From a virus, in the IMG/VR virus record IMGVR_UViG_3300025131_000013, positions 29,476 to 93,475 of that record: DNA of 64,000 bases. One strand, given 5' to 3'. Shown one piece after another: positions 1-63,846 of the stretch. Below the pieces are notes generated by a model. That model ran no database searches. It was not told the origin of the DNA and was given only the letters and a program-made list of their open reading frames with translations. A program made the position numbers and the translations under genes. Within the stretch, counting starts at the first letter, position 1, and each line of letters starts with the position of its first letter.

Positions 1-931
1 TACGACTGCTGGTGTCGGTGGTGACTTTCTTCCGGTCCCGTTGGCGAATACCTTTATTGATCTCGTAAGAGATCAGAACTGGGTCCGCCAACTGGTCCAG
101 ACCGTGCCGATGGGCTCCAAGACCCTTGATTTCCCAAAGATTCTAACAGGTCCGTCAGTGTATTACGAGTCAGCTGAGAATGCGCAGGCAGTAGAAACAA
201 GCATGACGACTGGTTCGGTGCGTCTGACAGCCAAGAAGCTCTTTGCGCAGTTAAAGGCGTCTGAGGAACTCTTTGAGGATGCTGCGTTCGATATGGATAC
301 GATCATCCGACAGCATTTCGTGAATTCCCTGGCTGATGCCGAGGAAGAAGCGTTTGTTGACGGTGAAACTACCCATACCGCCTCAGCAGTAACCCCAGGA
401 GCTGCTACGGAGTCCAATTGGTATACGAAAGATCACCGTCTGATTTTCGACGGGTTGGCTACACTCTCGACTGCCTCAGGGGCTGCAACGGGTGTCAACG
501 GCGCAGGTGCGTCGATTACTTCCGCTATGATTAGGGAAGCAATCTACAACCTGGGCGTTTATGCGCGTTCAATGAAGGATGTGGTTGTCCTTCTTAACCC
601 TTGGTCGGCGAACGAGCTTTTGGATGACGCCAAGCTCGTAACTCTCGACAAGTATGGTTCCCAGGCGACGATTTTCACGGGAGAAATTGGCCGGCTGTAC
701 GGCCAGGCACGCGTTCTGACCTCGCCGTATCTGGCAGACGGTAAGGGTGTGTTCTTCCACCGGGGTAATCCTCTGATTGGTGACCGCAGACTTGTGCGTC
801 TGCGCGGTGAGGATGTTATTGAGTATGATCAGCGAAGGCTGGTGATCTCAGAGCGTCTTGACTTCGTGGTGCAGTATGCTAACGCCATCGGCGAGATGTT
901 TAACTTGGATCGTCCTGGATCTGGCTCCTAA
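1..931 (+). CDS. Major capsid protein, HK97 fold (5'-truncated)
   Basis: The frame is already open at base 2, so the N-terminus lies outside the window and 309 residues are visible. The visible part begins at GGDFLPVPLANTF, followed by a helix of the type KLFAQLKASEELFEDAAF, which matches the spine-helix/E-loop region of HK97-type major capsid proteins. The end (GEMFNLDRPG) also suits this family. The protein would form the icosahedral shell after assembly around scaffold. It is followed by a strong hairpin (955-992), expected after a highly expressed gene. The ATG/TTG-type starts inside the frame near base 41 are not real starts. Family assignment is by pattern recognition. Confidence 0.85.
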   Translation, partial: TTAGVGGDFLPVPLANTFIDLVRDQNWVRQLVQTVPMGSKTLDFPKILTGPSVYYESAENAQAVETSMTTGSVRLTAKKLFAQLKASEELFEDAAFDMDTIIRQHFVNSLADAEEEAFVDGETTHTASAVTPGAATESNWYTKDHRLIFDGLATLSTASGAATGVNGAGASITSAMIREAIYNLGVYARSMKDVVVLLNPWSANELLDDAKLVTLDKYGSQATIFTGEIGRLYGQARVLTSPYLADGKGVFFHRGNPLIGDRRLVRLRGEDVIEYDQRRLVISERLDFVVQYANAIGEMFNLDRPGSGS

Positions 932-954: not shown

Positions 955-992
955 AATGAAGGGGGCGGGGCTTTGGCCTCGTCCCTTTCATT
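955..992 (+). terminator. Long hairpin after the capsid gene
   Basis: Two 17-base arms (955-971 and 976-992) pair along their full length with a few G-U wobbles around a TTTG loop. There is no uniform T-run after it, only a T/A-rich stretch (TTGTATATAG). It may work as an attenuating terminator or as a 3' stabiliser of abundant capsid mRNA. Confidence 0.6.
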
Positions 993-1019: not shown

Positions 1020-1154
1020 ATGAAAGAGGTATTTAAAAGTAAGACAGATGGAGAGCCGAAGCCGATCAAGAAAGAGATGATAGGCCAACGGACCCCTGAA
1101 GAGAAGAAGCGCAAGAAAGAGACAGAATTGAGGAAGGGATGTTTGATATATTAG
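1020..1154 (+). CDS. Small lysine-rich protein, unknown
   Basis: This 44-residue reading frame begins with an ATG placed six bases after AAAGGAGG (about 1006-1013), the strongest ribosome binding site in this part. It overlaps the start of the next gene by 16 bases. The product is very basic (many Lys and Arg, with a PEEKKRKKE core) and has no recognisable domain. The strong ribosome binding site, placed just after the capsid terminator, is the main argument that it is translated. It may also serve translational coupling to the downstream membrane protein. Confidence 0.5.
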   Translation: MKEVFKSKTDGEPKPIKKEMIGQRTPEEKKRKKETELRKGCLIY

Positions 1155-1729
1155 GTGCAGTAAGCTCTATAGCGACAGGAGGATTAACTGGACTCATCGG
1201 GTCCGGTATTTCGCAGTTTATGGAGCACAGGAAGCAAAAGACTGAATACGCCCATCAGCTTGCTTCTCGTAGACTTGATCTAGAGATAGTTGAGAAGAAG
1301 GCAGAGCTTCAGATCAAGGTAAAAGAGACCGATGCGAATATCGCGCTTGAGATTGAGGCTGGAAAAGATTTTAGGAACTCATTTGATAACGATAAGGCTA
1401 GATATGTTGATTCTAGTCGGACTGGTGCTGTTGTTAACTTTCTTCTAGGGTGTGTGGATGTAATTAGAGGGATGATCAGGCCAGTAGCTACTATTTTCTT
1501 CAGCTATTTGACCTATTCTATCTCAGACTCCCTTTTGACTCTATTAGGGGGAATTGATCAACTTCCCAGAGAACAATTAGTTGATCTCCTTAATAGAGTC
1601 ACCCAAACAATACTGTATATCGCTACGACTTGTATTTTATGGTGGTTCGGAACTAGGCCACCAAAGATGAACCAATATACCGGAGGTGTCTATGCCGCAC
1701 AACGTGGCGAAGCACAGCGTTCTGGTTGA
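1139..1729 (+). CDS. Holin-like membrane protein
   Basis: This 196-residue protein has a glycine-rich hydrophobic N-terminal segment (about 4-28), a charged helical region likely to form a coiled coil (29-80), and two further membrane segments (about 116-138 and 155-171). An RGMIRP motif (110-115) precedes the second segment. Arg-x-x-Arg-Pro before a membrane span is typical of phage membrane proteins resembling the three-span holins of gene-transfer agents. A role in membrane permeabilisation at lysis is therefore possible, but the position beside the capsid gene is unusual and no endolysin is adjacent. A virion-associated membrane role is an alternative. Confidence 0.45.
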   Translation: MFDILGAVSSIATGGLTGLIGSGISQFMEHRKQKTEYAHQLASRRLDLEIVEKKAELQIKVKETDANIALEIEAGKDFRNSFDNDKARYVDSSRTGAVVNFLLGCVDVIRGMIRPVATIFFSYLTYSISDSLLTLLGGIDQLPREQLVDLLNRVTQTILYIATTCILWWFGTRPPKMNQYTGGVYAAQRGEAQRSG

Positions 1730-1786: not shown

Positions 1787-3910
1787 GTGAATAAGTTTGA
1801 AGGTAAGAATTTTGTGAATCCGGGCAATGTTAAGATTGATGATCCCAAGGCCGCGATTGCTATCGAAGCTCAGATCCTTTCGGATTTGATTATTGATCGA
1901 AAGCAAACCGGCCATGAATCATTGGGTGATAAGGATGCCCTGATCCAAGTAGCTCATGATGTTGATTGGGTTACTCTCCGAATAGCCAAGAGGCTTATTA
2001 AGGAGGCAGGACCACGAAAAGCTATCGCGCTTGCTCAACTAGCGTCAGGGAATCTCTTTACTCCGCATAACGAGATACGGACGATAGAGAGAAAGCCCGG
2101 GAAATCATGTGCATTCTTCTCTGACGGTCGTTCCTTCTATACGGGTGGTCGCTACAGCGTTTTTATGCACGCCGTCTTACTGGCCGAGGTGATGAATGTC
2201 ACTTGGCTGACTGATGAACCCCTTCCGTTTGAGTCAGACTTCCCAGATCATAAGGTCAAGGTCATTGAAGACGCTCGGATATTTGAGCGGAAGATGGAGG
2301 ATCTTGGTGTTGACTTTGTAGTTGGACTCCCCAATCTATCAGGACAAGCTGCAGCCGCTTATTCGGAGCAGTTCAAGATCCCCTATTATTTGGTGATGTT
2401 TGAATCGCCGAATTTCATCAAGGAGTTCAGGAGTGATGGGGAAGATGCGAAGGAAACCTACTGGACTGACTATAAGAAGTGTATGCGTGGTTGCGACGCT
2501 GTTATCGCTCATAGCAATGTTAGTGCGGACTTTACTCGTGATTGGCTCTCTGACGGAGAAGGTAGACTCCCTCCAGTCCGAGTAACTCACCCTACGTGGA
2601 ATAAGACAATACTTGACGCTGAACTGTTTAGCCAGCTCAAACCTAGAGAGGGTGTGGTAATTTGCTCCCGCTCTGCTCCGTTCAAAGATCCGTATGCTCT
2701 GCTAGTTGAGCTGGATAAGATAGGCTTTAAAGAGCGAGTGGTAATAATCGGAAAGACTTGGAAGACAGATCGTTACGAGAAGGATTGGTCTTTTGAGTTG
2801 ATCCTATACGGGACTATCTCAGATACTAGAAAGTTCTCGTATCTGAAGCAAGCCAAAGTTCTCGCTATGCCCTCCCAATTTGAAGGATTTGGGATGCCTC
2901 CAATGGAGGCACTGGCGTGCGGAACTCCGGTGATCGCTTATGATCTGCCCGTTCTTAAGTCGATTTATGAAGGGGAGATTGTCTACACCCCTATAGGTAA
3001 TGCTGGTTTGATGGCACGGCGTATAGTAGAGGCGTGTGATCCTGAGATCAGAGACATACCTTTCCAATCAAAGCCAATCCTCAAAAAGCTCTCCCCGCGT
3101 AGTGCGTTAACTTCCCTAAAGCGCGCCTTCCCAGGCCCATTAACACTTGGAGTAGGCATTATTGCCTACGATATAGGGGATTGGGTAGGAAAGGCAATTG
3201 AGAACGCCGCCCAGTATGCTGACGAGGTCTATATTGTCCACGGACGGTGCGCTGACTTCCCTGAAGCTCCTCACGGAGACCAGCATACGATTGAGGAGAT
3301 TGAGCACGCCATCTCTCAGATAGACGTTCCGGTGTTCTTCCATCGGCTGGGAGAGCATATCCCTCCGACTAAGGTTGCTCTCCAAAACTTCATCGCCGAA
3401 CGGGTTGAGACCGACATCTATATGAAGCAGGATGCGGATGAGTTCTGGCATCCAGAAGATGTTCAGAAGGCTCTGGAGATGTTCGTTGAGGATGAGGAAT
3501 TGGACATCATCCGAGTGTCCTGGCATCACTTCTGGAAGAATTTGAAGCAGGTTACTTGTGATGCCGGAGGTCAGTGGACGAATAAGCACCCTCGCTTCTG
3601 GAGATGGAACTCAGGGTTCTCCCATACCTTTACCCATAACAACTTTGTCGACGCAGATGGTATAGAAGTCAGACCACCGGACTATCCAGAGGTTGTAACA
3701 GACCTAACCTGCTATCACTGCGGGTATGCTCGGGGTGAAGAGTATGTCCAGCGCAAGATCGAGTTCTATCGGGATAGGGGAATTGAGAAGGATGTTAAAG
3801 ATACCTATACCGATTGGAAGCCTGGAGATCGGACTCAGCCTACCCAGCACGCTAATGTGAATAGCTGGGTCGAGCCGTTCAAGGGTAAGTTGCCGGAGAT
3901 CCTGAAATGA
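1787..3910 (+). CDS. Two-domain glycosyltransferase (GT4-like + GT2-like)
   Basis: This 707-residue protein starts with GTG after AGGAG (1774-1778). The N-terminal half is a GT-B glycosyltransferase of the GT4 group: residues about 364-385 read FEGFGMPPMEALACGTPVIA, the nucleotide-sugar-binding signature with its conserved Glu. The second half, from about residue 450, begins GVGIIAYDIGDW and contains QDADEFW near 547-553, a DxD-type metal motif of a GT-A (GT2-like) enzyme. One chain could therefore add two sugars. It opens the glycan cassette directly after the head genes and overlaps the next gene by four bases. The acceptor is unknown; capsid or tail protein, or host envelope glycan, are possibilities. 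Confidence 0.75.
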   Translation: MNKFEGKNFVNPGNVKIDDPKAAIAIEAQILSDLIIDRKQTGHESLGDKDALIQVAHDVDWVTLRIAKRLIKEAGPRKAIALAQLASGNLFTPHNEIRTIERKPGKSCAFFSDGRSFYTGGRYSVFMHAVLLAEVMNVTWLTDEPLPFESDFPDHKVKVIEDARIFERKMEDLGVDFVVGLPNLSGQAAAAYSEQFKIPYYLVMFESPNFIKEFRSDGEDAKETYWTDYKKCMRGCDAVIAHSNVSADFTRDWLSDGEGRLPPVRVTHPTWNKTILDAELFSQLKPREGVVICSRSAPFKDPYALLVELDKIGFKERVVIIGKTWKTDRYEKDWSFELILYGTISDTRKFSYLKQAKVLAMPSQFEGFGMPPMEALACGTPVIAYDLPVLKSIYEGEIVYTPIGNAGLMARRIVEACDPEIRDIPFQSKPILKKLSPRSALTSLKRAFPGPLTLGVGIIAYDIGDWVGKAIENAAQYADEVYIVHGRCADFPEAPHGDQHTIEEIEHAISQIDVPVFFHRLGEHIPPTKVALQNFIAERVETDIYMKQDADEFWHPEDVQKALEMFVEDEELDIIRVSWHHFWKNLKQVTCDAGGQWTNKHPRFWRWNSGFSHTFTHNNFVDADGIEVRPPDYPEVVTDLTCYHCGYARGEEYVQRKIEFYRDRGIEKDVKDTYTDWKPGDRTQPTQHANVNSWVEPFKGKLPEILK

Positions 3911-4785
3911 GGATTTGTATAATCAGGAACAATAATCCGGGGCACGTCCAGATAGCAGATATGCTCTGGAGGTCAGCCTTAAGACTAGGGCATACTCCTG
4001 TTCTTGCCGGGGCAAATGATATGTCCCCAAGACCAGCGGATATGACCATCCTAGTCAATATCGTCCCTAAAGCTATGGCGGCAGTCAATAAGGCTACTGG
4101 GACTCTCGGCAGGATACGTAATAAGGTGTATATCAATCTTGAGAACTTGCCTTTTGCCGAGGGCAGTGGTCAGTTCGAGAGATACAGGATCAAAGAGTTT
4201 AACGCCCAGATAGAGATTTTCAATCCTGGCTGCGTAACACTCTGCGACCCCGGAGTGTATGATCGGGTGTCCCTTAAGAAGCTAGGCGTGATGATGCCTC
4301 GCCAGTTCTACGATAAAGGGTTCTTGTATGATCCAGACTTCCATAGGGATCTAAGGATGCTTAAGGATTTGGGAGCTTGTTTTATAGGGAGCTTGAGCGA
4401 GGACAGGAAAGAGAAGTTGGCGTCTATTCGGAAGGTGAATGTCTTTCGATCCTGGGGGTATGAGAAGGTATCCTTGATGAACCGACACGCCATCTCCCTG
4501 AACTTCCAAAAGCGGGATGAGCACAACTTCAAGACGTATAGGGCAGTAGACGCGATAATGTGTGGGTGCCTGTTCTTAACAGAGCAGGATGACTTCCATA
4601 CTACTTTCCCTGATGATTGTTATGTCTCAGTCCCGATAGAGGATATGCCTGAGGCGGTGGAGTATTATCTTGAACACTCCAACGAGAGGGAAAAGATAGT
4701 AGGTTTGGCCCAGGAGTTCATCAAGAGTAATTTTGGAGTAGACCAGTATCTAAGTGGACTAGTAGAGGAATTTCAAGATGCCTGA
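3907..4785 (+). CDS. CgeB-like glycosyltransferase
   Basis: This 292-residue protein starts at an ATG that overlaps the previous stop by four bases (ATGA). The C-terminal part (about 210-285) has the pattern of the Glyco_trans_1_2/CgeB group: a YRAVDAIMCGCLFLTEQDD segment followed by a helix with YYLEHSNEREKI. In this group the region forms the nucleotide-sugar-binding half of a GT-B fold. The N-terminal half starts as a Rossmann-like strand (MRICIIRNN). Sugar donor and acceptor cannot be read from sequence. It is one of three related enzymes in the cassette, which suggests several sequential transfers. Confidence 0.65.
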   Translation: MRICIIRNNNPGHVQIADMLWRSALRLGHTPVLAGANDMSPRPADMTILVNIVPKAMAAVNKATGTLGRIRNKVYINLENLPFAEGSGQFERYRIKEFNAQIEIFNPGCVTLCDPGVYDRVSLKKLGVMMPRQFYDKGFLYDPDFHRDLRMLKDLGACFIGSLSEDRKEKLASIRKVNVFRSWGYEKVSLMNRHAISLNFQKRDEHNFKTYRAVDAIMCGCLFLTEQDDFHTTFPDDCYVSVPIEDMPEAVEYYLEHSNEREKIVGLAQEFIKSNFGVDQYLSGLVEEFQDA

Positions 4786-6070
4786 TAAAGTTGATGGCTT
4801 GCGGGATATAGTGAATAATCTGAAGAAGAAGGATCGAGACTCCACTATCTTGTTCACCGAAGAAGAGATCATGGAGATTCGTCACGGTCAATCTTCAGAA
4901 GAGGACAGGAAAGCCTTGTTTGATGCCGTCAGGGAGAGGCCAGGATTCCAAGCTCCTGGAGCAGCAGCTCACGCCAGCAGACCGGAGATGATCGCTAGAG
5001 AAGGGCAGGAGAATATGACTAGTGATCAACTAGCTGATCTCCTTATGCTCAAGCTACAGGTAACTCCTCAGCACAAGATACCTTTCACGGGGACTAAGGT
5101 CAATGTCAATAGTTGGTCTAACGCGACTAGGACATTCAGATGTTGGGGAGACTACTGGGCCTGGATGCAATTGGGTCGTGCGTTTACTGAATTGGGCTAC
5201 CATTTTAATGTTGATCCTGGGATCTCTGACGTCACAGTGTATCTGAGGGGCGGTCGATTCAAGACCGACGATCATTGGCAGGTCCCAAATCGGATCAACC
5301 CAAATACCCACAATATTGTCTGGATCTATTCTCATCCGGACGACATATCGAGTCTTGAGCTTCGGGACTACGATGAGGTATGGTGCCTCTCCCAGAAAAT
5401 GGTCGATCAAGTTCAGGCTTACGGGCACAAGGGATTAGTTGAGACTCCTATTACTTCGTGCACAAACATGGTGGAGCCTTCTACAGTCGATGACCGCTTC
5501 GACGTAGTATTTATCGGGAATGCCCGAGGTCAGACAATTAACGAGGATGGTAGGGACGTCATCCAGATGCTGAAGGATCGATCGGATCTAAACGTAGGCA
5601 TCTACGGGATGAAGTGGGATCTCCCTCATCTTAGCTGGGTAGTAGATCGAGGATGGTGGCAGGGTGACTACTACGCCTACTACAAGCTACCAAGACTCTA
5701 CAGCGGAGCAAAGGTAGTCCTGAATGATACTCACCCCGATATGGCTAGGTTCGGGTTCATCCCGATGAAGCTATTCGATATCATTAGATCAGGTGGATTC
5801 CCGATCACGGACGGCATCGCTGGTCTTGAGGAGAAGCTCCCAGAGATAGCTGTCTATGAAAGCAAGAAGAATCTCAACGATCTGATTGACTATTACCTGG
5901 AGGAATCAGACGAGCGGACTGAGAGACAGCGCGATATGTGGTATCGTATCAAGGATGATACCTTTACCGCAAGAGCAGCAGAAGCAGTCGAGAGTTCTCA
6001 TTACGAGGGATGGAAGTCAAGAGAGTCAGTATCGCAGGAGATGTTCGATGTCCACCGAGTTGAAGCTTGA
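4778..6070 (+). CDS. CgeB-like glycosyltransferase with N-terminal extension
   Basis: The protein has 430 residues, and its ATG lies eight bases inside the previous gene behind GAGGAA. Residues 1-100 are charged, helical and without recognised domain. The catalytic part starts near residue 105. Residues about 326-352 (FIPMKLFDIIRSGGFPITDG) and the following DYYLEESDERTERQRD helix repeat the C-terminal signature seen in the genes at 3907 and 6638. This places it in the same GT-B group. The extension could bind the acceptor or another cassette protein. It overlaps the methyltransferase start by 23 bases, implying translational coupling. Confidence 0.65.
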   Translation: MPDKVDGLRDIVNNLKKKDRDSTILFTEEEIMEIRHGQSSEEDRKALFDAVRERPGFQAPGAAAHASRPEMIAREGQENMTSDQLADLLMLKLQVTPQHKIPFTGTKVNVNSWSNATRTFRCWGDYWAWMQLGRAFTELGYHFNVDPGISDVTVYLRGGRFKTDDHWQVPNRINPNTHNIVWIYSHPDDISSLELRDYDEVWCLSQKMVDQVQAYGHKGLVETPITSCTNMVEPSTVDDRFDVVFIGNARGQTINEDGRDVIQMLKDRSDLNVGIYGMKWDLPHLSWVVDRGWWQGDYYAYYKLPRLYSGAKVVLNDTHPDMARFGFIPMKLFDIIRSGGFPITDGIAGLEEKLPEIAVYESKKNLNDLIDYYLEESDERTERQRDMWYRIKDDTFTARAAEAVESSHYEGWKSRESVSQEMFDVHRVEA

Positions 6071-6641
6071 GGTAGGGTGCGGCGGTAGATTGCCTGGAGG
6101 CTATATCGGAGTAGATATAGTCCAGACTAAGGCAGTCAAAGGGAAGCCGTTTATCTATGGTGAGGCTGCTAAGATACCGTTTCAAAGCGGGACGGTAGAT
6201 GAGGTATCCTGCTGTCATATGGTAGAGCATCTTGACCCTAGATACTTTGTGAGTTGTCTACTTGAATGGCGTAGAGTTCTGAAGGTAGGCGGGGCGTTGG
6301 TTATCCAATGCCCTAATGCTATTGTCTACCTAGAGGAACTTCTTGAGTTCTTTAGAGATGGTGGATTACCTCGCGCACCACGGCTAGAGCCGCAGAGGTA
6401 TCCAGATGAGATGAAGAACCGACCGTATGAGATGTGGCCTATAATCCAGGTCACCGGACTTGCTTCGATAGGAGACCATATGGTTAATCGGAATCACTTC
6501 TCTATAGAGCATCTGAGATTCTACGTCGAGATATACGGTGGCTTTGAGATAAAGGAAGCCAAAGTCAAAAGGACTAGGCAGAGTCACGGAATCGAACATC
6601 GACCTGACGGAGATTTAATTGTCCGAGGAACAAAAAGATGA
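6048..6641 (+). CDS. SAM-dependent methyltransferase (class I)
   Basis: This 197-residue protein is taken to start at the ATG at 6048, seven bases after AGGAG (6036-6040). The open frame extends further upstream but without a better start. Motif I is LEVGCGGRLPGGYIGVDI (about 7-24), typical of the SAM-binding loop followed by an acidic strand end. DEVSCCHMVEHLD and RRVLKVGGALVIQCPN are the usual later motifs. It resembles the methyltransferases that act on sugars or small molecules in polysaccharide clusters. Its position between glycosyltransferases suggests O- or N-methylation of the glycan. Confidence 0.7.
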   Translation: MSTELKLEVGCGGRLPGGYIGVDIVQTKAVKGKPFIYGEAAKIPFQSGTVDEVSCCHMVEHLDPRYFVSCLLEWRRVLKVGGALVIQCPNAIVYLEELLEFFRDGGLPRAPRLEPQRYPDEMKNRPYEMWPIIQVTGLASIGDHMVNRNHFSIEHLRFYVEIYGGFEIKEAKVKRTRQSHGIEHRPDGDLIVRGTKR

Positions 6642-7651
6642 TCAAGGTATTCTATGTAGACGCTTTTGCCCAAGAGAGGTATTCAGGCCCCTTTAGGCTC
6701 AAAGGATTCGAGTTGGCTAAGTTCGATGCGGTTGCGTTTGATTACCGACAGATCGGATATACTCACGGGGAGCTAGGGCTGAATCACTCTCTACTCAATT
6801 CTTTGAGGGTTTTCAGACCGGATGTTATATTCGTCAACAAGGGGCACTTCGGGATTAATCAGAAGGTGCTAAGGCAGTTCCTTGACGATAATCCTCATAC
6901 TATGCTCATCACTTGGACCGGAGATCAGCGCGGGACGGTAATGGATGAGGTAGTTCCCTGTGCTCAACTCTCTCATGTCCTTGCCCATAGTAATGACGAT
7001 CCTAAGTTGGCTAAAGGGTATAATGAGGTGGGCGTCCCTAACGTAATAGAGCATCATTGCGCTACGGACGTTGAGGTGTATAAGCCTCACGATGCCTGGC
7101 CGCAATCAATGGAAGGAGAGGTATCCTTCTTTGGCAGCCAATACGGGGCGTATCCTCTTAGCGGGTTCAGGGATGAAGTCCTGAAAGCTGTTGATAAGGA
7201 GTATGACCTAAAGCTGTATGGAGGAAACTGGGAGAGGGTGTTTCCGGGCAAGCTGACTAGCCAAGCCCATCGAGATAGATACGCTTTGGCTGCCTCCGGC
7301 TGTAATATCCAACTCTGTGTCAATGCCTTCAATAATATCCACCGCTATACGTCGAATCGGGTATGGAACGCTTTGGCGTGCGAGAGGCTTGTTTTACAGC
7401 ACCATTTCGCCGGGGCTGAGTCTTTATTGGGTCCAGGTTGTGAGAATGTAGTATACTTCCAAGATACTGATCAGTGCCTGGCGCTTATTGACTACTATCT
7501 GGCCCATAAGGATGAGGCCCAGGAGATAGCAGCCAGAGGCAGGAAGTTTGTTGAGGAGGCTCATACCTACTACCATCGGGCTATGGAGCTAAAGGATATA
7601 TACGACAAGTGGATGGAGGATGATGCCTGGTCCTTCAACAGGAGGGGATAA
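6638..7651 (+). CDS. CgeB-like glycosyltransferase
   Basis: The protein has 337 residues and starts at an ATG overlapping the previous stop by four bases. It begins with a Rossmann-type strand (MIKVFYVDAF). The middle contains VFRPDVIFVNKGHF and MLITWTGDQRG. The C-terminal half has NRVWNALACERLVLQHHFAG, then YYLAHKDEAQEIAARGRKFV, the Glyco_trans_1_2/CgeB signature. It is about as long as a complete two-lobed GT-B enzyme. It differs strongly from its two relatives in the cassette, so it is probably not a recent duplicate but an enzyme with another acceptor or donor. Confidence 0.68.
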   Translation: MIKVFYVDAFAQERYSGPFRLKGFELAKFDAVAFDYRQIGYTHGELGLNHSLLNSLRVFRPDVIFVNKGHFGINQKVLRQFLDDNPHTMLITWTGDQRGTVMDEVVPCAQLSHVLAHSNDDPKLAKGYNEVGVPNVIEHHCATDVEVYKPHDAWPQSMEGEVSFFGSQYGAYPLSGFRDEVLKAVDKEYDLKLYGGNWERVFPGKLTSQAHRDRYALAASGCNIQLCVNAFNNIHRYTSNRVWNALACERLVLQHHFAGAESLLGPGCENVVYFQDTDQCLALIDYYLAHKDEAQEIAARGRKFVEEAHTYYHRAMELKDIYDKWMEDDAWSFNRRG

Positions 7652-8481
7652 TGCCTGATGCTTTTTGGCAAACTCCGGAGTTTCTGGAATTCTTGACTAA
7701 AGGTAAGGTTGAGAAGACCAGATATAATCTGAATGTGGATGATCTATCTCCTGCTATACCAAGGAAAGAATCTACAGACATCCTATTCAAGCTATTCAAG
7801 CTATACCCCGGTTTAAAGGTGGATGCCTTTGTAATCCCTGACTGGAGAGGCGAGGCCTGTGTTAAGGACTACCCTGGTTGGATACAGGAAGTCAAGACCC
7901 TGGTCGATATGTTCGATCTGAGGCTCCACCACCACGGGCTTAACCATGATTTCAATCAAGGCTTTAGGACAGAGTTCTCGGATAAGTCAATAACTGAATG
8001 CGAGGACATTATAATAAAGGCCGTAGAGGTCTGGAGCAAGGTAGGGTTGGATGTAGGGATGGAAGTCTTCAGGTCACCTAGATGGGTTAGCAGCACGAAC
8101 CTTTTGGATGCTTGTAAGAATCTAGGGTTCAAGATAATTGGCCTAAATTGGAGGCAGCATCCGGCAGAAGTATGGAAGAGGGGGATGGATGTAGTATATA
8201 GCAATTTCTACTACGCCAATACCCCGACCTACCCAAGCGGCAAGGCTAAGGATAAGGATCTCCACCAGTTATGGTCTGATTTCTCTAACGAGAGGATCTG
8301 CCACGCTCACTTCGGGCATCTAGGATACGATGCCTTGAGGAAAAGAGTAGACAACACAAAGGTGGACATAAGAGATATGATCCTTTACGGGGCAGACTAC
8401 GTGTATCTGGAAGAAGCAACTTCTTTCCGAGAGGTGGTGAAAAATGCAAATCCCGCTGTTCAAGCCGCATGTCAACCCTAA
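7651..8481 (+). CDS. Polysaccharide-deacetylase-like (NodB-fold) protein
   Basis: The 276-residue protein shares one base with the preceding stop. It shows the layout of a NodB-type deacetylase: an Asp-Asp pair in NVDD (28-31), a histidine-rich metal motif LHHHGLNHD (about 92-100), an Arg-containing FRSPRW near 140, and a late His motif HAHFGH near 217-222. In this fold one Asp acts as base and the Asp/His/His group binds zinc. It may remove N- or O-acetyl groups from the cassette glycan or from host polysaccharide. A DUF2334-type relative is an alternative. No signal peptide is present, so it should act in the cytoplasm. Confidence 0.6.
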   Translation: MPDAFWQTPEFLEFLTKGKVEKTRYNLNVDDLSPAIPRKESTDILFKLFKLYPGLKVDAFVIPDWRGEACVKDYPGWIQEVKTLVDMFDLRLHHHGLNHDFNQGFRTEFSDKSITECEDIIIKAVEVWSKVGLDVGMEVFRSPRWVSSTNLLDACKNLGFKIIGLNWRQHPAEVWKRGMDVVYSNFYYANTPTYPSGKAKDKDLHQLWSDFSNERICHAHFGHLGYDALRKRVDNTKVDIRDMILYGADYVYLEEATSFREVVKNANPAVQAACQP

Positions 8482-9586
8482 AGCCCTAAAGGGATTAGCC
8501 GATATATTTGAGTCCGGTTGGACGGGTCTTGGCCCAAAGACTGAGGAGTTTGAAGAGGCTTTCTGCGAATATACCGGGGCTAAGTATGCGGTAGCTGTCA
8601 ACTCGTGTACAGCAGCCCTACACTTAGCCTTAATTTGCGCTGGATCAAGGGATGAAGAGACAGTCATATCAACTCCTATGACTTTTGTTTCGTCCAATGA
8701 GGCTATTAAGTATACCGGGGCATACGTTGATTTCGCAGACGTATGTTCTGAAACGCTTAGTATGGACCCCAAATCTTTACAAAAGATGTGCGAGGATCAA
8801 GGGCCACCGAAGGTTGTAGTTGTAGTCCACTATGGTGGCTCTCCGGCAGAAATTGATTCTTTTTCTAGTCTCCAAGATCAATACGGCTTCGAGATTGTAT
8901 GGGATTGCGCCCATGCTATGGGTGCTTCTCATAGGGATAGGAAGCTGGGATCTTTTGAGAAGTTTGCCTGCTTCTCTTTTCACGCGGTAAAGAATCTAGG
9001 GATTGGTGACGGAGGGATGATAGCGACGAATGATCAAGAGGTCTATGAGCGTCTCAAGCGTCTAAGATGGATGGGCGTTGATAGCTCGACTTACGAAAGA
9101 TCCTCAAACGGAAAGTATAAATGGTTGTATTCCGTAGATGAGTTGGGGTATAAGTATCACATGAACGATGTCATGGCTACGATTGCTTTGGCTCAGCTTA
9201 AGGATCTAGAGTGGCAAAACGAGAGGCGCAGGAATTTAGCCCTCCAATACCAGCATTTTCTCGTAGACCAATGGGCTTCTAATGGGGATCTGCAGATCGT
9301 TAATCCTTATAAGTCAGATAGGGAAAATGCCCAGCACCTGTTCGTTATACGGGTGAAGAAGGGGGCAAGGGACGGCTTACATAACTATTTGGCTAAAAGA
9401 GGGATCACTACCGGGGTCCATTATTACCCGAACCACCTATACAAGATGTTTTACGGGCAGTACCAGTGCCAGCAGGCTTGCTTGGCATTTGAGGAAATCC
9501 TTAGCCTACCGATGTATTGGCAGATGGAAACTGAGGAGCAGACTTATGTTTGCGAAGCAATTAAGTCCTATTTTAACGCTGTCTGA
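8444..9586 (+). CDS. DegT/DnrJ/EryC1-type sugar aminotransferase
   Basis: This 380-residue protein starts 38 bases inside the preceding gene, behind AGGTGG. It has the full pattern of PLP-dependent nucleotide-sugar aminotransferases: IPLFKPHVNPKA at the start, GWTGLGPKTEEFEEAF, the cofactor loop with NSCTAALHLAL, DCAHAMGA (Asp for the PLP ring nitrogen), and Lys183 in FSFHAVKNLGIGDGG as the Schiff-base lysine. Such enzymes transfer an amino group from glutamate to a keto-sugar bound to a nucleotide. Followed directly by an acetyltransferase, it suggests synthesis of an N-acetylated amino sugar. Confidence 0.85.
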   Translation: MQIPLFKPHVNPKALKGLADIFESGWTGLGPKTEEFEEAFCEYTGAKYAVAVNSCTAALHLALICAGSRDEETVISTPMTFVSSNEAIKYTGAYVDFADVCSETLSMDPKSLQKMCEDQGPPKVVVVVHYGGSPAEIDSFSSLQDQYGFEIVWDCAHAMGASHRDRKLGSFEKFACFSFHAVKNLGIGDGGMIATNDQEVYERLKRLRWMGVDSSTYERSSNGKYKWLYSVDELGYKYHMNDVMATIALAQLKDLEWQNERRRNLALQYQHFLVDQWASNGDLQIVNPYKSDRENAQHLFVIRVKKGARDGLHNYLAKRGITTGVHYYPNHLYKMFYGQYQCQQACLAFEEILSLPMYWQMETEEQTYVCEAIKSYFNAV

Positions 9587-10145
9587 TAAGATGGCGATTA
9601 AAAATCTTGTTCCAAAGGAGCAAGATAAGGTTCCTGTAACTCAACTTCGATGGATGATGGATCTGAGGAATAGGGATCAGGGCGTCCGGGATGCTCTAGG
9701 GATAGAGGGGCAACAGACTTGGGAAGAGCAATTGGCTTGGTACAAGGGTTTCATCTTCGACCATAAATCAGCTATTTATATGATTCACTACGGCAGTAAT
9801 TTTGCCGGATACTTGAACTTTACAGCTCTTGATCTAAAGGGAAGGCACACTGAGATAGGGATTAAGATGACTGAGGCCTACCGGGGACAGGGGATAGGGA
9901 GGCAAGCCTTCGAGTTCTGGTGTGATATGCTTACCAAATACTATAACCTGAATAAGCTCTACCTTTGGGTAAGGGAGCATAATTTACCCGCAATAGGCCT
10001 GTATGAGTCTATGGGTTTTGTTGAAACAGGGCGCCACAAGGCTCACTTTTATGATGATGAATCAGGTCATTGGAGCGATTATATCTTAATGTCTCTGTAC
10101 CATATTCTCTTTACGCCTTCAACTATAGAGAAGAAGGATGGTTGA
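9546..10145 (+). CDS. GNAT-family N-acetyltransferase
   Basis: The protein has 199 residues if it starts at the ATG at 9546, seven bases after GAGGAG. An alternative ATG at 9591 lies just after the aminotransferase stop but has a weak ribosome binding site. The acetyl-CoA loop is RGQGIG (113-118 from the first start), preceded by EIGIKMTEAY and followed by LYLWVREHNLPAIGLYESMGF, the classical GNAT motifs A and B. With the upstream aminotransferase it forms a pair like PseC/PseH or other sugar 4-amino/acetyl pairs. It is the last gene of the glycan cassette. Confidence 0.75.
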   Translation: MFAKQLSPILTLSDKMAIKNLVPKEQDKVPVTQLRWMMDLRNRDQGVRDALGIEGQQTWEEQLAWYKGFIFDHKSAIYMIHYGSNFAGYLNFTALDLKGRHTEIGIKMTEAYRGQGIGRQAFEFWCDMLTKYYNLNKLYLWVREHNLPAIGLYESMGFVETGRHKAHFYDDESGHWSDYILMSLYHILFTPSTIEKKDG

Positions 10146-10170: not shown

Positions 10171-10201
10171 TTAGCGACCGAACTATTTCAGGAGAAATGT
10201 G

Positions 10202-10834
10202 ATGCCCTACGCTGTAGCAAATGACGCCGCGTCTCTTGCTGGCCTACAGGCTGGTGATGTAACAGCGGCCCACGCAACCCTAGCAGACGATATCGTTGAC
10301 TCTCTGATGAATAGGGTGCCGGATGGTTTTAATCAAGTCACAGCTTCTGCGGAGTCACACACAGTGCGTATCGCTGGAACGCGTGAGCTTCTATTAAATC
10401 ATCATCCGGTGATTTCTATTACTACGGTGGTAGTGGACGCCAGGGCTTCTAATCCTACCACTCTAAATTCGGGTAACTATAGAGAGGAAAATGGAATCCT
10501 CAAGTTAGTTACCCCGGCTGCGGTGAACGCAGGGATAGAGTGGGTTTCTTCATGGCCAGTTGGAATCGAGCAAGTTGATGTCACCTACGAATACGGATAT
10601 TCGTCAACTCCTGCTCTGATAGTCCAACTGGCTAATATTATCGCCGGAGAGATTGGCAAGAAGGCTAATCAAGCAGCCAATCAGCCAGCCTCCGGAGCTT
10701 CAAAAGTCCGAATCGGAGACTTTGAGGAGCAGTATGCGTCCGGATCAATGGACGCTATTACTCAAATGCTTACTGAAACAGGCAAGGTAATCCTTGCTCA
10801 AGCGAACTTAATTTATCGGGAGTATCGCTACTGA
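10202..10834 (+). CDS. Head-tail connector (gp6-like adaptor) protein
   Basis: This 210-residue protein is taken from the ATG at 10202, seven bases after AGGAG; a GTG one codon earlier is also possible. It carries the N-terminal helical region (LADDIVDSLMNRV), a central beta hairpin with RELLLNHHPVISITTVVVDA, GNYREENGILKL and VDVTYEYGY, and C-terminal helices. This layout is typical of HK97 gp6-type and other head-completion proteins that bind below the portal. Gene order (connector, closure, gp10-like, terminator, tube) agrees. It is longer than the usual 100-120 residues of minimal gp6 proteins but similar to larger relatives. Confidence 0.65.
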   Translation: MPYAVANDAASLAGLQAGDVTAAHATLADDIVDSLMNRVPDGFNQVTASAESHTVRIAGTRELLLNHHPVISITTVVVDARASNPTTLNSGNYREENGILKLVTPAAVNAGIEWVSSWPVGIEQVDVTYEYGYSSTPALIVQLANIIAGEIGKKANQAANQPASGASKVRIGDFEEQYASGSMDAITQMLTETGKVILAQANLIYREYRY

Positions 10835-31404: not shown

Positions 31405-31857
31405 ATGCCAACGCCTGAAGAACTAGCTGATCAGATAGCCAAGCTTGACGCTGATAGAGCTATACTGGAAAAGAAGCTCGTTGAAGATCCTATCAACGAG
31501 ATTACTTTCAAATCAGCGGTCGATATAGTTGCTGCTGATCCCCTAATGTCGTCAATCGGAGTGGCGGTAGTTAAGTCAGAGATACACCCTCAATGGTGTA
31601 GTCTCGACTTTCCTGTTGGCGCTGCTTCAGGATTCCAAGCGTTGGCTATGAGGCAGATGATACAGCTTATGCTGTCTCTCGGTGCTGAGCCTGGATTCAA
31701 AGTGGTGGAGAACGGAGCCAAGAGTAGGCTGCCCTACAGGGTATACGTGGCTATTACGAATATCAACGAGTGTATTGAGGCTGTGAGGGTTATGGCTTTG
31801 ACTGACTCCCAGAGAGTGTTGGAGTATGCCGTTGAGGCAGACGAGGCAAGTATATGA
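31405..31857 (+). CDS. Small tail-region protein (copy A), unknown
   Basis: The 150-residue protein starts with a coiled-coil helix (MPTPEELADQIAKLDADRAILEKKL). It then has a compact domain with GVAVVKSEIHPQWCSLDFP and SGFQALAMRQMI, ending GAEPGF. The central motif (GV, then PQW, then D-x-P, then SGF/TGF, then GA-x-P) recurs in the gene at 35659, so the two are diverged paralogues. The function is unknown. It could be a fibre accessory or assembly factor that moves together with the LamG adhesin. Confidence 0.5.
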   Translation: MPTPEELADQIAKLDADRAILEKKLVEDPINEITFKSAVDIVAADPLMSSIGVAVVKSEIHPQWCSLDFPVGAASGFQALAMRQMIQLMLSLGAEPGFKVVENGAKSRLPYRVYVAITNINECIEAVRVMALTDSQRVLEYAVEADEASI

Positions 31858-32489
31858 TCTCAGGTGATATCAAATCCAACGGCTGCGCTCTGCTCCCAGG
31901 AGTAGTGACTGGACCGTCGACTAAGATTATGATCGAGACTCTCAACGGGATGCTAGAAACCCTGGAAGAGATGTCTAGGGTTAATGGCTTGATAGTCAGA
32001 GAGACATTCTCAGACTTCTTCAATCTCCCACAGATAACGGATGTAGTCAAGGACGTTCTTGGGACTGATAGTCCTATCCTTTTGGCTACGAGAGGGAATG
32101 CTAGTGTCTCTAGTGATCCCGGTGATCCGCCTCATTCTAACAATTATGAGTGGGGTAATATTGCCCCAGGAATCTCGATAGTCACGGCCTGTCTCTATCT
32201 GGATAAGATAGACGATACGTCAGGCACGTTTGCTTACTGTCCAGGATCCCATCTGAAGTATTACCCTCCTTATACGGAAGTCCCGACCCAAGCAGATATA
32301 GACGCGGGGACATATGAGGAAGTCTACGCAGAGGCGGGTGACGTTCTCTTTAGGATACCGGAAGTCTGGCATGCTGTAAGGCCGATAGGAAACCCAAGAA
32401 GATATATCACAGGCTTCTGGGTGAATCCTGATAACGCGGGCAAGTTCCTCTCAGAGCGGGTGGAGCGATTTTTGGAGGTTCGGGCCTAA
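31854..32489 (+). CDS. Phytanoyl-CoA-dioxygenase-like (Fe/2-oxoglutarate) protein
   Basis: The 211-residue protein overlaps the previous stop by four bases. The fold signature of PhyH-type oxygenases is present: PPHSNNYEWG (92-101), TACLYLDKIDDTSGTFAYCPGSH (111-133), and EAGDVLFRIPEVWHAVRPIGNPRR (160-183), with distal His173 and Arg182/183 for 2-oxoglutarate. The proximal iron motif, normally His-x-Asp, reads His94-Ser-Asn96. Activity is therefore uncertain. In a fibre gene block it might hydroxylate a tail protein or a glycan, or be a structural descendant. Family assignment is fairly firm, function open. Confidence 0.65.
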   Translation: MISGDIKSNGCALLPGVVTGPSTKIMIETLNGMLETLEEMSRVNGLIVRETFSDFFNLPQITDVVKDVLGTDSPILLATRGNASVSSDPGDPPHSNNYEWGNIAPGISIVTACLYLDKIDDTSGTFAYCPGSHLKYYPPYTEVPTQADIDAGTYEEVYAEAGDVLFRIPEVWHAVRPIGNPRRYITGFWVNPDNAGKFLSERVERFLEVRA

Positions 32490-41635: not shown

Positions 41636-41981
41636 GGATAAGGATGTGACAATGAATCCTTTTTGGGGAGACCCAGAGAAGGTTTGGGTTCCGTTTAATG
41701 GATGTAAGTTGCTTAAGTCTGACTATATAAAACAGGACGATACCGCTTTTCACGTAGGTGAATTGTTTTTTGTATCCGGCGATACTATGTCGGACATCCA
41801 GACAGCATTTAGAACCGGGTCTCAACAGAGAGTCAAGAATATCCTGAGTCGTATTATCGTAGTTGAGTGCGGGCTGTTGGTTAGTCTTTTTGACAAGAAG
41901 GAGTGGATTCATGCTGTTGACGAAATCAAGACAGAAAAAGCTCGGTCTAAGTCAGAGGTGGAAGCAGAAGCGGAGTCTTGA
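41628..41981 (+). CDS. Unknown protein after DnaB
   Basis: The 117-residue protein is taken from the ATG at 41628, nine bases after AGGAG and inside the helicase stop; an ATG at 41619 is also possible. The central part (FHVGELFFVSGDTMSDIQTAF, then SRIIVVECGLLVSLFDKKEW) is compact alpha/beta. The end is charged (KSEVEAEAES). No family recognised. The next gene starts inside it. Confidence 0.5.
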   Translation: MSEDKDVTMNPFWGDPEKVWVPFNGCKLLKSDYIKQDDTAFHVGELFFVSGDTMSDIQTAFRTGSQQRVKNILSRIIVVECGLLVSLFDKKEWIHAVDEIKTEKARSKSEVEAEAES

Positions 41982-43032
41982 TCTCCCGGCAAGTCTTTGG
42001 GAGCAAGAACTCGCCCATATTAAGCAGTATGGGCCGGGAGGAATGAAGAGATTGGGAGGCCAAAAGGCTTACCCAGATATTGCTTTGATTCGGAAGGATA
42101 TCAAGAGGAACTATACTGAGGTATTCACTCGGGATGATAGTCGAAAGCAGATCCGGTGGCCCCTTAACTTGGAGTATACCTGCTCCGGATTCTTCTTGAA
42201 CAATGGACCTTCTCATTGTGGGGTAGTTATACCAACAGAGGGTAGGCCCGAATTGTTGGAGCGGTGCCTCAGGACGATACAAGAGAAGGCAATGCTGCGC
42301 CTTCCGGTCCTTATAGTAGACGATGGCGCTAAAAAGCCAGTCAAGAAACTGGACTTTATCAAGCACAAGAAGGAACTCTTTGATTTCCCGATTGTTGTGA
42401 AGCGACCGGCAAAGTTGTCGGGAGTCAAGGATGGGGAGCGTTTGGGTGCCGGATTCGGCAGAGCCTTTGGGCAGCAATACTGGCACGCCAGAGAGAGGCA
42501 TTGGGTAATCCAGATGGATGATGATGCCTTCATCCATAACCATTGCTTCGAGAATCTCTACGCCAACGCAATGATCAATGACAACTACGGGATCATCGGG
42601 GCGATGGGATCCTTCCGGCAATTCTATCAGGGGAACTGGAGAGATGAGCACTCTATCAATGCGATCGGCGTCTGCTATATTGTTAATAAATGGGCTATTG
42701 ATCTATGCGGGAATTTCGACCGCAGGATGCGCGCAAGGCAGGATGTCGATTTGGCTATTAGGATGTGGCTTAATGGCTTTCGTGTTTGTGTGCTCCCTAA
42801 AGCTGATGTTGACCACGTTCGGTTCAGGACCAAGAAGGAAGAAGATCCAGAACGGGTAGAGATGTTCGAGCAATGGAAGGTTGATGCCGGGAACCTTCTT
42901 AAAAAGAAGTATAGCAAATTCGGGCTGAAAGCCAGCGCGAGTGGTGTCCTCCGCTATATGGAAGCCTTCGAGAAGCAGGGCTTTGTCCGTATGGCCTGGA
43001 GGAAAACGAAGGCAGGACTAAAGGCCAAGTAA
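41911..43032 (+). CDS. GT-A glycosyltransferase (GT2/TAGT-like)
   Basis: The 373-residue protein is taken from the ATG at 41911, eight bases after AAGGAG. After a basic N-terminus the fold starts at about 104 with CGVVIPTEGRPELLERCLRTI. PVLIVDDGAKKP follows, then WVIQMDDDAFIHNHCF (about 197-212, DxD-type metal motif), and QDVDLAIRMWLNGF (about 277-290), the typical ED-x-D-motif helix. It lies between DnaB and a methyltransferase, far from the virion glycan cassette. DNA glycosylation, as by the TET-associated glycosyltransferases of some phages, is therefore one possibility. The acceptor is not visible. Confidence 0.65.
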   Translation: MLLTKSRQKKLGLSQRWKQKRSLDLPASLWEQELAHIKQYGPGGMKRLGGQKAYPDIALIRKDIKRNYTEVFTRDDSRKQIRWPLNLEYTCSGFFLNNGPSHCGVVIPTEGRPELLERCLRTIQEKAMLRLPVLIVDDGAKKPVKKLDFIKHKKELFDFPIVVKRPAKLSGVKDGERLGAGFGRAFGQQYWHARERHWVIQMDDDAFIHNHCFENLYANAMINDNYGIIGAMGSFRQFYQGNWRDEHSINAIGVCYIVNKWAIDLCGNFDRRMRARQDVDLAIRMWLNGFRVCVLPKADVDHVRFRTKKEEDPERVEMFEQWKVDAGNLLKKKYSKFGLKASASGVLRYMEAFEKQGFVRMAWRKTKAGLKAK

Positions 43033-43493
43033 TGTTTGTCCATGTAATCAGATACGCTTCGTTCAAAGATGACTCGCTAGGGTTTGCTATGATAGACGGA
43101 AGGTTTATTTGTCATACTTTGGAGGATGAGGATCGGACAAAGAAGGTGTCTGGTGAGACTAGGATACCTGACGGTCTGTATCAATTGGGCGTTCGCCATG
43201 ATAGCCCTAAGTTTAAGCATTTTGATGATAGGTGGGGTTGGCATAACGGGATGATTTGGATTAAGCACGTTCCAAATTTTACCTATGTCTATGTCCATCC
43301 CGGTAACGATGATGATGACTCAGATGCTTGTCTACTTACTGGTGATCACGTCTACCGGAAGTCAGGTAAGGACGCCCATAAGCTCGGTAAATCCAGGGAA
43401 GCCTACAAGAGGTTTTACTGTAACATCAGGCCGTGGTTAGATCTGCCTGGTCCACTCGATCCAGTCATAATAAGGGTAAGTTCGTATGCTTAA
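43032..43493 (+). CDS. DUF5675-like protein
   Basis: The 153-residue protein shares one base with the previous stop. SLGFAMIDGRFICHTLEDEDR, GETRIPDGLYQL and YVYVHPGNDDDDSDACLL match the compact beta fold of DUF5675 proteins known from phages and bacteria, which has a conserved LEDxxR and G-E-T-x-I-P-x-G. A relation to peptidoglycan or lysis enzymes has been proposed for such folds but no catalytic mechanism is established. Here it is embedded among modification-type genes. Confidence 0.6.
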   Translation: MFVHVIRYASFKDDSLGFAMIDGRFICHTLEDEDRTKKVSGETRIPDGLYQLGVRHDSPKFKHFDDRWGWHNGMIWIKHVPNFTYVYVHPGNDDDDSDACLLTGDHVYRKSGKDAHKLGKSREAYKRFYCNIRPWLDLPGPLDPVIIRVSSYA

Positions 43494-44130
43494 CAAGAAC
43501 GTCAGTCCATACAGGTATTGGGATGCTAGATATAAGTCTTTTGGTGGCCCGGAATCGGTATTCAATAAATCGGGTGCTCATCGGGCTATGTATCTGGAGG
43601 CAGTATCTGCTTGTCTTCCGGTAGTGAATCGCAAGAGGAATGTTCGTATTCTTGATTTAGGTGCCGGCCCAGGATTAATGGGGTATATACTACATTCCAG
43701 AGGTCATATTGGGGAGAGGGATACCTACAGAGCGGTTGATTTCTCTAGAGAGGCAGAGAAAGGGTTTGGTGAATACTTTGTAGGTAGGAACGGGTATGAT
43801 TTCACTCGGGCTGATCTATCTTATACCTTGCTTCCTGAAGTGAGGGAGGAAAAATGGGATCTGATTATTTGTACAAAGTGTCTTGAGCATCTTACAGATG
43901 ACGTTAAGATAGTGAGGATGATGATTCGCCTACTAGATACGGACGGGCGTATTGTCATTGCTGTCCCCAGATATACAGACCTTTCGTATTTATTTTCCAC
44001 AAGGAAATATGTGACTCCTAGTCCTATAACAGATCTTTTGAAGAAGTCCAGCCTGCATGCTGACTCTAAGCAAGTTGATGGATGGTGGGTTATCTCAGGG
44101 GATACAAGGAAGAACTCATGGTTATTGTAG
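43486..44130 (+). CDS. SAM-dependent methyltransferase
   Basis: The 214-residue protein overlaps the previous gene by eight bases. VRILDLGAGPGLMGYIL is motif I, YRAVDFSREA motif II, WDLIICTKCLEHLTDD motif IV and DGRIVIAVP motif V of class I methyltransferases. The N-terminal YRYWDARYKSFGG segment resembles small-molecule or nucleic-acid methyltransferases. No target recognition domain is visible, so a sequence-specific DNA methylase is unlikely. It could methylate the product of the adjacent glycosyltransferase. Confidence 0.7.
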   Translation: MLNKNVSPYRYWDARYKSFGGPESVFNKSGAHRAMYLEAVSACLPVVNRKRNVRILDLGAGPGLMGYILHSRGHIGERDTYRAVDFSREAEKGFGEYFVGRNGYDFTRADLSYTLLPEVREEKWDLIICTKCLEHLTDDVKIVRMMIRLLDTDGRIVIAVPRYTDLSYLFSTRKYVTPSPITDLLKKSSLHADSKQVDGWWVISGDTRKNSWLL

Positions 44131-62534: not shown

Positions 62535-63248
62535 ATGGCGAAGCGTAGTAAATCTGTGAAGAAGCAGAAGATACGTTGGTCTGATCTACAGGGCGTCCTT
62601 GACGGATGCCCTCGTGCATTTAAGACAACACTGAACTACCTCTCTTACGATGAGAAGGGTAGGAATGTCCTTGAAGGCTATCTTAGGAGAACAGAGCGCC
62701 AGCTCAAGCGATTGCCTGATTCGGAATACGGTGACTTAGTATCCGAGGCCCATAAGCAAGTATGGAGATGTGCAGGGCGGTATCTGGCTCGTAAGGCCAC
62801 CGGAGAGAAGTCAACGATTGCCTTCAGAGTCTATTATTATCAGAGATTGAAGCAGTGTTTCACTGATAGAGTCCGAGCGACCCAAAAGAAATCTGACGTT
62901 CATAATACCCATGCTCTATCGGCAGACGCCTTGATGGAAGATTCAGGATTTGATCTGCCCGGATCGTCAGTCGGAGGTGATGTTCCAGCTAGGATAGATA
63001 TTAATCTTCGGATTCAAACGTTAGGAAAGCACGAACGGACTATCGTCAAGAAGTTAGATGATGGATGGACGCCTACTCAAATCAAGAGGGAGTTGATTGA
63101 TCGCCTTGTGAGTAAGAAACCGGGGCGCAATTACGATGATGTAGCAAAGCTAGTCAGAACTAGAGTAGATCAGTCTCTGGCGGTGATACGATCAGTTCTC
63201 GAAGATGTCTGGGGTGCCTACGATGAAGATCATAGATTTCACAGCTAA
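62535..63248 (+). CDS. Sigma-factor-like protein
   Basis: The 237-residue protein starts ten bases after GAGGGGG. After a basic N-terminus, residues 65-118 (YGDLVSEAHKQVWRCAGRYL, then FRVYYYQRLKQCFTDRVR) resemble sigma70 region 2: an acidic-hydrophobic helix, and an aromatic and basic helix for -10 melting. Residues about 160-190 (RIQTLGKHERTIVKKLDDG then WTPTQIKREL) resemble region 4 with a helix-turn-helix. An ECF-like factor that directs host polymerase to late phage promoters is a reasonable hypothesis. It could also be another DNA-binding protein. Confidence 0.45.
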   Translation: MAKRSKSVKKQKIRWSDLQGVLDGCPRAFKTTLNYLSYDEKGRNVLEGYLRRTERQLKRLPDSEYGDLVSEAHKQVWRCAGRYLARKATGEKSTIAFRVYYYQRLKQCFTDRVRATQKKSDVHNTHALSADALMEDSGFDLPGSSVGGDVPARIDINLRIQTLGKHERTIVKKLDDGWTPTQIKRELIDRLVSKKPGRNYDDVAKLVRTRVDQSLAVIRSVLEDVWGAYDEDHRFHS

Positions 63249-63846
63249 TTGCGAGGACTGTGAAGATAGAGTCATATTGGAGACTTTCGTCCCTTGTATG
63301 GCTTTGAACGGCAATCCTATAAAGGAGGAAACAATAATCAGGTTGCTGTGCCAGTATTATACAGGCATCTTTCAGGGTTCAGGCGTAATAATGAAGCGAC
63401 CTAGAGTATTTGACTATGCTCTGGACTCTTACAAAGGCTTTCGGTTCTACTGGGAGTTACAGAAGGAGAAAGGTTGGTTTGCGGAAAAAGACCGCAAGAA
63501 TCTTATTGATACAGCAAGGCGTGTATTTTTAGTCGACCACGCTGTAGTCAGTGTATACCTTAACGACCTTAATACCGATGGTGGTAAGTGTCCAAGCTGT
63601 GTCTTTAATAAAGACCTTACACAGGAGGGACAAAATGCGTTAAGACCGCAAGACGGCAGCATAGGAAGTGCTTGTCCGGTTAGACCAGGAGCAGTTGAGC
63701 GAGTAGTAGAATGTCGAGAGTATCGGTTGGATATCGAAGAATTTTTGTCGTTTGAGACTACGACATCAACCCCCATAGCAGGAGTATTAGGACATGGCGA
63801 CAAAGAAAGAGAAATTGTTGGCCGCAGCCAAGAAAGCGAAGGTTAA
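63223..63846 (+). CDS. Unknown protein with Cys pairs
   Basis: The 207-residue protein is taken from the ATG at 63223, eight bases after GGGGTG; it overlaps the sigma-like gene by 26 bases. Cys pairs (CEDCED near the start, CPSC in the middle, single Cys further on) suggest a zinc site. The middle is helical with aromatic residues (GFRFYWELQKEKGWF). No family recognised. Its end overlaps the next start. Confidence 0.45.
   Translation: MKIIDFTANCEDCEDRVILETFVPCMALNGNPIKEETIIRLLCQYYTGIFQGSGVIMKRPRVFDYALDSYKGFRFYWELQKEKGWFAEKDRKNLIDTARRVFLVDHAVVSVYLNDLNTDGGKCPSCVFNKDLTQEGQNALRPQDGSIGSACPVRPGAVERVVECREYRLDIEEFLSFETTTSTPIAGVLGHGDKEREIVGRSQESEG

Follow-up and report, generated by a model that had tools for sequence, protein, structure and literature searches.

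What is a run of eight sugar-enzyme genes doing in the head gene cluster of a tailed phage, and where would its product go? The run lies at 1787–10145 of a 64,000-nucleotide stretch (hereafter the window), which corresponds to bases 29476–93475 of the 93,475-base IMG/VR virus contig IMGVR_UViG_3300025131_000013 from an uncultured tailed phage. Coordinates are those of the window, except that those prefixed L002 follow the contig numbering (i.e., L002:672–2943 is contig 672–2943) and other prefixed coordinates are given as such. The eight genes form a real, well-formed cassette for glycan assembly and editing, which is probably destined for the virion. The reading we favour, although we would give it no better than an even chance, is that this late-gene cassette builds a modified amino-sugar oligosaccharide and attaches it to the phage's own particle.

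Eight coupled genes for soluble enzymes

All eight open reading frames (ORFs) lie on the + strand between the capsid gene (ending at 931) and the head-tail adaptor gene (starting at 10199). Their seven junctions comprise, in order, overlaps of 4, 8, 23, 4, 1 and 38 bases and a 4-base gap, after which the last gene (GNAT) starts with an ATG at 9591. Moreover, a Kyte-Doolittle scan of the cassette proteins revealed nothing that convinces as a transmembrane helix; the highest 19-residue mean (1.66) belongs to the aminotransferase, and the structure of its homologue ArnB has been solved as that of a globular enzyme. The eight genes are translationally coupled and encode soluble enzymes. An earlier, sequence-only reading had described eight consecutive genes between capsid and connector, and all ORFs and their overlapping or abutting order were confirmed. 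The cassette lies inside the capsid–adaptor interval but does not directly adjoin the capsid gene, from which a hairpin and a membrane-type gene (1139–1729) separate it.

Four glycosyltransferases, one of them a two-domain fusion, had likewise been proposed, and Pfam indeed returned a GT4 domain and three PF13524 proteins, the GT2 half of the fusion being weakly called. The N-terminal half of this fusion (starting at 1787) is a GT4 domain with an EGFGMPPME motif (PF00534/PF13692). Its C-terminal half aligns with PF00535 over residues 440–707 at a sub-threshold E-value of 0.028 and carries DADE at residue 549, a motif and profile match that weakly suggest a GT2 domain. The fusion and the glycosyltransferases starting at 3907 and 6638 had no relatives among 50,697 phage records, and the one at 4778 (predicted local distance difference test score, pLDDT, of 37 in single-sequence structure prediction) yielded a single weak partial match there. 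The glycosyltransferase at 6638 has a paralogue on the same contig (L002:2035–2943; 27% over 320 aa, E = 2e-26). When compared with a background set of 50 IMG/VR contigs (1.26 Mb) selected solely by a common holin family, PF13524 was found in 0/50 contigs vs. four genes in the 93-kb phage contig, and PF00535 in 3/50; the sugar-gene load of this phage is above the phage background.

The identities of the methyltransferase (starting at 6048, not at the TTG at 5886), the DegT aminotransferase and the GNAT acetyltransferase were upheld by PF08241, PF01041 and PF00583, respectively. The aminotransferase belongs to the DegT/DnrJ/EryC1/StrS family (PF01041, 312.9 bits, E = 4e-93). Since PseC (TIGR03588; 299.9 bits, under the equivalog cut-off of 423.5) and then ArnB were its best-scoring profiles, the substrate that it aminates is most likely a nucleotide-linked 4-keto-hexose. 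Alignment with ArnB (1mdo, E = 1e-61) pairs FSFHAVKN with FSFHAIKN, and K183 is the probable lysine for pyridoxal phosphate (PLP). A genome scan with this aminotransferase gave no match. The GNAT resembles RimI (50 bits) and PseH (45.9 bits vs. a cut-off of 93.1) to much the same degree; its highest scores were with RimI and polyamine acetyltransferases, and it attained no cut-off. This adjoining pair, with PseC and PseH as best or near-best equivalogs, resembles the PseC–PseH step of pseudaminic acid synthesis, from which it differs in that both phage enzymes score under the equivalog cut-offs and the contig has no PseB-type dehydratase.

The proposed deacetylase-like protein displays three catalytic CE4 motifs, i.e., DD (NVDD, residues 28–31), HxxxH (HGLNH, 95–99) and RxPxW (RSPRW, 141–145), but its PF01522 match is sub-threshold (E = 0.09; 13.2 bits, below the gathering score of 23.1, with profile positions 3–123 of 124 aligned) and its single-sequence structure prediction gave a low-confidence fold (pLDDT 47). 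Foldseek searches with this model returned weak matches to TIM-barrel sugar isomerases, which were given no weight here. No relatives of the protein were found among the phage records, nor, in a search run without a positive control, in 18 chosen genomes and about 400 genomes from each of two phyla.

Scanning IMG/VR with the deacetylase, the aminotransferase, the glycosyltransferase at 6638 and the adaptor retrieved only two more contigs, both of the same virus (datasets 3300037634 and 3300002518), with 8 and 10 bases differing from the window over 14.8 and 18.5 kb, respectively (the longest stretch compared was 20.6 kb). Because all eight cassette ORFs are intact in these three contigs from different datasets, and the GC content and codon use of the cassette resemble those elsewhere in the phage, the cassette is resident and maintained.

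Sugar supply and the likely acceptor

The cassette had been called complete and able to make and assemble a modified amino sugar. The claim of completeness fails, since neither PF01370 (nucleotide-sugar epimerase/dehydratase, the PseB superfamily) nor PF00483 (sugar nucleotidyltransferase) was found in the 93.5-kb contig, both being positive in 14/14 control genomes. The cassette modifies, assembles and edits, but does not start from central metabolism, and activated sugars, including the keto-sugar of the aminotransferase, must therefore come from the host. The DegT enzyme would aminate a nucleotide keto-sugar supplied in this way, and the GNAT would N-acetylate the product. The glycosyltransferases would add sugars stepwise in the cytoplasm, from a Ser/Thr or other residue of a capsid or tail/fibre protein, and the deacetylase-like enzyme and methyltransferase might edit or cap the chain. 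The outcome would be a glycan coat that alters virion adsorption, stability or recognition.

The choice of acceptor is guided by the lack of membrane proteins. Gtr serotype-conversion cassettes of temperate phages contain a membrane flippase (GtrA) and membrane glycosyltransferases; the present cassette shares with them the phage-borne glycosyltransferases, but is devoid of any transmembrane protein. For want of a convincing transmembrane helix, a flippase, a transferase for lipid carriers and a membrane glycosyltransferase of the Gtr type are all missing from it. This disfavours Gtr-type conversion and a phage-completed lipid-linked route, and makes it likelier that the sugars are transferred directly to an acceptor in the cytoplasm. 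Because DNA is also disfavoured as an acceptor (see below), phage structural proteins would be the simplest one. Decoration of the phage's own capsid or tail, put forward earlier alongside alteration of the host surface, is thus the best-supported target, although sequence alone does not settle between virion and host surface.

The capsid protein ends in ...NLDRPGSGS (902–931), and that of a sister phage, matching at 84–86%, ends in RPGTGS (L010:10970–10999), so that the S/T change keeps a hydroxyl; these tails are suggestive candidates for glycan acceptors. In mycobacteriophages (Che8, Rita and relatives; Freeman et al. 2023, as cited), glycans are described on capsid and tail-tube C-termini in PMC12619734 and PMC11256854. 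Both cases share phage-encoded glycosyltransferases in a tailed phage whose structural proteins bear a glycan, here as a proposed outcome. The cases differ in that the glycosyltransferase genes of the related mycobacteriophage Maravista lie near the genome 3′ end (PMC11256854), with no mention there of DegT, GNAT or deacetylase genes.

Position in the head module and competing explanations

A cassette of glycosyltransferases and methyltransferases also occupies the capsid-to-head-completion interval of podovirus ctKR88 (MW202524), where a glycosyltransferase fusion, a glycosyltransferase, a GT4, a fibre-like gene (encoding a long repeat-rich protein), a methyltransferase, a glycosyltransferase-like gene and a methyltransferase lead from the capsid to the stabilisation genes. 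Both cassettes have the same interval, a two-domain fusion as first gene, further glycosyltransferases and methyltransferases, and no predicted transmembrane helix in the genes checked. In ctKR88, in contrast, the fusion order is GT2–TPR–GT4, no aminotransferase, GNAT or deacetylase is annotated, and the capsid (PF17236, SU10 type) is unrelated to the HK97-type capsid of our phage. Further placements within structural regions are those in ct7QV12 (a TibC-annotated glycosyltransferase, a methyltransferase and a DegT gene directly before the terminase), in ctf1B273 (glycosyltransferases between terminase and portal, one being homologous to that of ctKR88; 27% over 560 aa) and in 1/50 background contigs (a GT2 gene, L131:8656–9729, in the late structural region, with a collagen-like fibre gene on one side and probable head-completion genes on the other). 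These parallels were found through similarity and are not a census of phage genomes. The position, earlier deemed unusual for host-directed enzymes, is hence uncommon but not unique, cassettes of such kind are rare but not unique, and their placement gives moderate support, though no proof, for a virion target. It is conceivable, if doubtful, that head-coating glycan cassettes have repeatedly and independently settled in the capsid-to-head-completion interval as their docking site; the present one would place an N-acetylated, O-methylated amino-sugar chain on the phage's own capsid, and environmental phages would thus have a self-made glycan shield.

A number of observations weigh against a virion target. 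The first glycosyltransferase of ctKR88 has no BLAST similarity to the fusion at 1787 (only the methyltransferases are alike), so the two cassettes are parallel in where they lie and in the kinds of enzyme they encode, but no further. Most inspected phage DegT cassettes (immuto, ACG-2014f and AG-345-F15) lie outside head modules; that of Flavobacterium phage immuto (Immutovirus) is likewise a single run, with genes for five glycosyltransferases, two WecE-type DegT enzymes, a methyltransferase and "pilin glycosylation", but adjoins non-structural genes, has its own nucleotide-sugar epimerase and has no annotated deacetylase. The same virus carries sugar genes outside its head module (L002:672–2943 and 41863–43032), and a hairpin stands between capsid gene and cassette, so that they may or may not be transcribed together. 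Capsid adjacency is, moreover, not required for virion glycosylation, given the position of the Maravista genes. Finally, the missing membrane glycosyltransferases and flippase argue against serotype conversion but do not by themselves identify the acceptor.

The enzymes could instead change a host surface glycan (capsule, lipopolysaccharide or S-layer) and, e.g., block other phages or the binding of progeny to debris. Clusters of DegT, glycosyltransferase and methyltransferase genes resemble O-antigen or capsule loci, and the surface-sugar-type clusters of cyanophages AG-345-F15 and ACG-2014f include epimerases and lie away from head genes. Nevertheless, the lack of a membrane-spanning glycosyltransferase, flippase, polymerase, lipid-carrier transferase and Gtr architecture, together with a late virion gene position that leaves little time before lysis, makes this unlikely. 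A moron-like metabolic or surface-sugar insert without any link to head proteins, at a site between terminator and next operon that tolerates insertion, would fit the terminator-like hairpin upstream of the cassette. It would also fit the sister phage, where the capsid and 3TM-holin genes in L010 are followed by 118 bases up to the contig end that do not match the fusion, suggesting that the content of the capsid–adaptor interval may vary. The phage-like GC content and codon use, the retention of the cassette in three contigs and the use of the same interval for similar enzymes by ctKR88 nonetheless render such an insert improbable.

Phage glycosyltransferases are best known for acting on DNA, according to PMC12619734, and DNA hypermodification would have them act on a hydroxylated base that the aminotransferase, acetyltransferase and methyltransferase decorate further against restriction. 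The genome does encode ThyX (L002:3034) and a PhyH-type dioxygenase. However, PF00303 (thymidylate synthase; dUMP/dCMP hydroxymethylase) was not found in the contig (9/14 controls positive), UDG and ThyX are ordinary, the cassette lies among late head genes rather than replication genes, and four glycosyltransferases plus a deacetylase would be excessive. DNA modification is thus very unlikely, and was dropped as main explanation for want of PF00303; PF12851 (Tet/JBP dioxygenase) matched neither the contig nor any control. That the GNAT and the deacetylase-like enzyme have proteins or small molecules as substrates, making the cassette a mixed bag rather than a single pathway, would accord with the RimI and polyamine acetyltransferase scores of the GNAT and the low-confidence deacetylase fold. 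It is hardly credible given the nearly gapless operon coupling and the location of the GNAT directly after the PseC-like aminotransferase, which mirrors the PseC–PseH reaction order.

Genome setting and implications

The features of the locus are listed in Table 1. The hairpin after the capsid gene folds in both phages and is then followed by a shared TTGTATATAG, possibly representing a terminator and promoter. It was absent from the output of a simple terminator scan, and scanning for promoters and terminators yielded no more than shuffled sequence. The sister gene at the position of the membrane-type gene (L010:11210–11635) is a PF11351 GTA_holin_3TM member (phrog_3427 holin). The sister contigs stop on either side of the interval, L010 ending 754 bases past the capsid stop and L021 breaking off 674 bases short of the gene for the tail tube-like protein, and an IMG/VR scan with the sister's holin retrieved no further sister copy.

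Table 1. Features of the cassette and its surroundings
Feature	Position	Strand	Evidence and remarks
Probable large terminase	L003:8306-10123		Upstream of window; by size and place, without Pfam match
Portal	L003, upstream of capsid gene		PF04860
Prohead protease, S78-type	L003, upstream of capsid gene
Probable scaffold gene	L003, upstream of window
Major capsid protein, HK97-type	41..931	+	PF05065 E 1.3e-22; start upstream of window; full gene L003:14915-15907
Strong hairpin, T-rich tail, terminator-like	956..992	+	Folded in window and sister L010:11020-11060
Small membrane-type protein	1139..1729	+	phrog_6637; occupies position of sister's 3TM holin
Glycosyltransferase fusion, GT4 + GT2-like	1787..3910	+	PF00534 E 2e-14; PF13692; PF00535 E 0.028; motifs
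Glycosyltransferase	3907..4785	+	PF13524 E 3.5e-11
Glycosyltransferase, ~100 extra N-terminal residues	4778..6070	+	PF13524 E 1.3e-12
S-adenosylmethionine-dependent methyltransferase	6048..6641	+	PF08241 E 1.4e-8
Glycosyltransferase, paralogue of L002:2035-2943	6638..7651	+	PF13524 E 8.9e-22
CE4-like polysaccharide/sugar deacetylase, weakly supported	7651..8481	+	PF01522 E 0.09; motifs
PLP-dependent nucleotide-sugar aminotransferase, PseC/ArnB-like	8444..9586	+	PF01041 E 4e-93; TIGR03588 300 bits
GNAT N-acetyltransferase, RimI/PseH-like	9591..10145	+	PF00583 E 2.7e-14
Head-tail adaptor, right boundary	10199..10834	+	phrog_442 E 2.6e-13

The second sugar locus (L002:672–2943), outside the window, consists of a flavin adenine dinucleotide (FAD) amine-oxidase/UGM-like gene overlapping the PF13524 glycosyltransferase gene L002:2035–2943. 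Since the sister phage has a 71% identical FAD-oxidoreductase gene there and lacks the adjoining glycosyltransferase, sugar genes evidently turn over in this lineage. A GT2-like glycosyltransferase gene (41863–43032; no relative in the phage records) and a methyltransferase gene (43486–44130), with a DUF5675 gene in between, are situated among replication genes. The PhyH-type dioxygenase gene (31854–32489) lies among tail fibre-type genes, and Pelagibacter phage HTVC027P likewise has 2-oxoglutarate oxygenases close to its tail genes.

Replication and repair genes of the contig encode DNA polymerase III alpha, RecA, a DnaB-type helicase, an SbcCD-like protein and ThyX. A scan with RecA for the host gave 45–53% matches to many phyla, pointing to no single one. 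Both contig ends (L002:1–408 and the window from 63846 to its end) belong to an acidic, repeat-rich gene region that is joined in the sister phage, where L022:7518–10596 holds the counterpart of the right end of the window (63205–63846) followed by genes matching the left end of the contig. This arrangement in the sister makes it probable that the contig represents a nearly complete genome in circularly permuted form.

Documented phage virion glycosylation comprises few systems with few enzymes. If the favoured reading is true, cytoplasmic sugar enzymes inside a head module would provide a genomic signature for glycosylated phages in metagenomes. With the help of the ctKR88 parallel, it would in turn offer a test of whether environmental phages routinely wear self-made head glycans.

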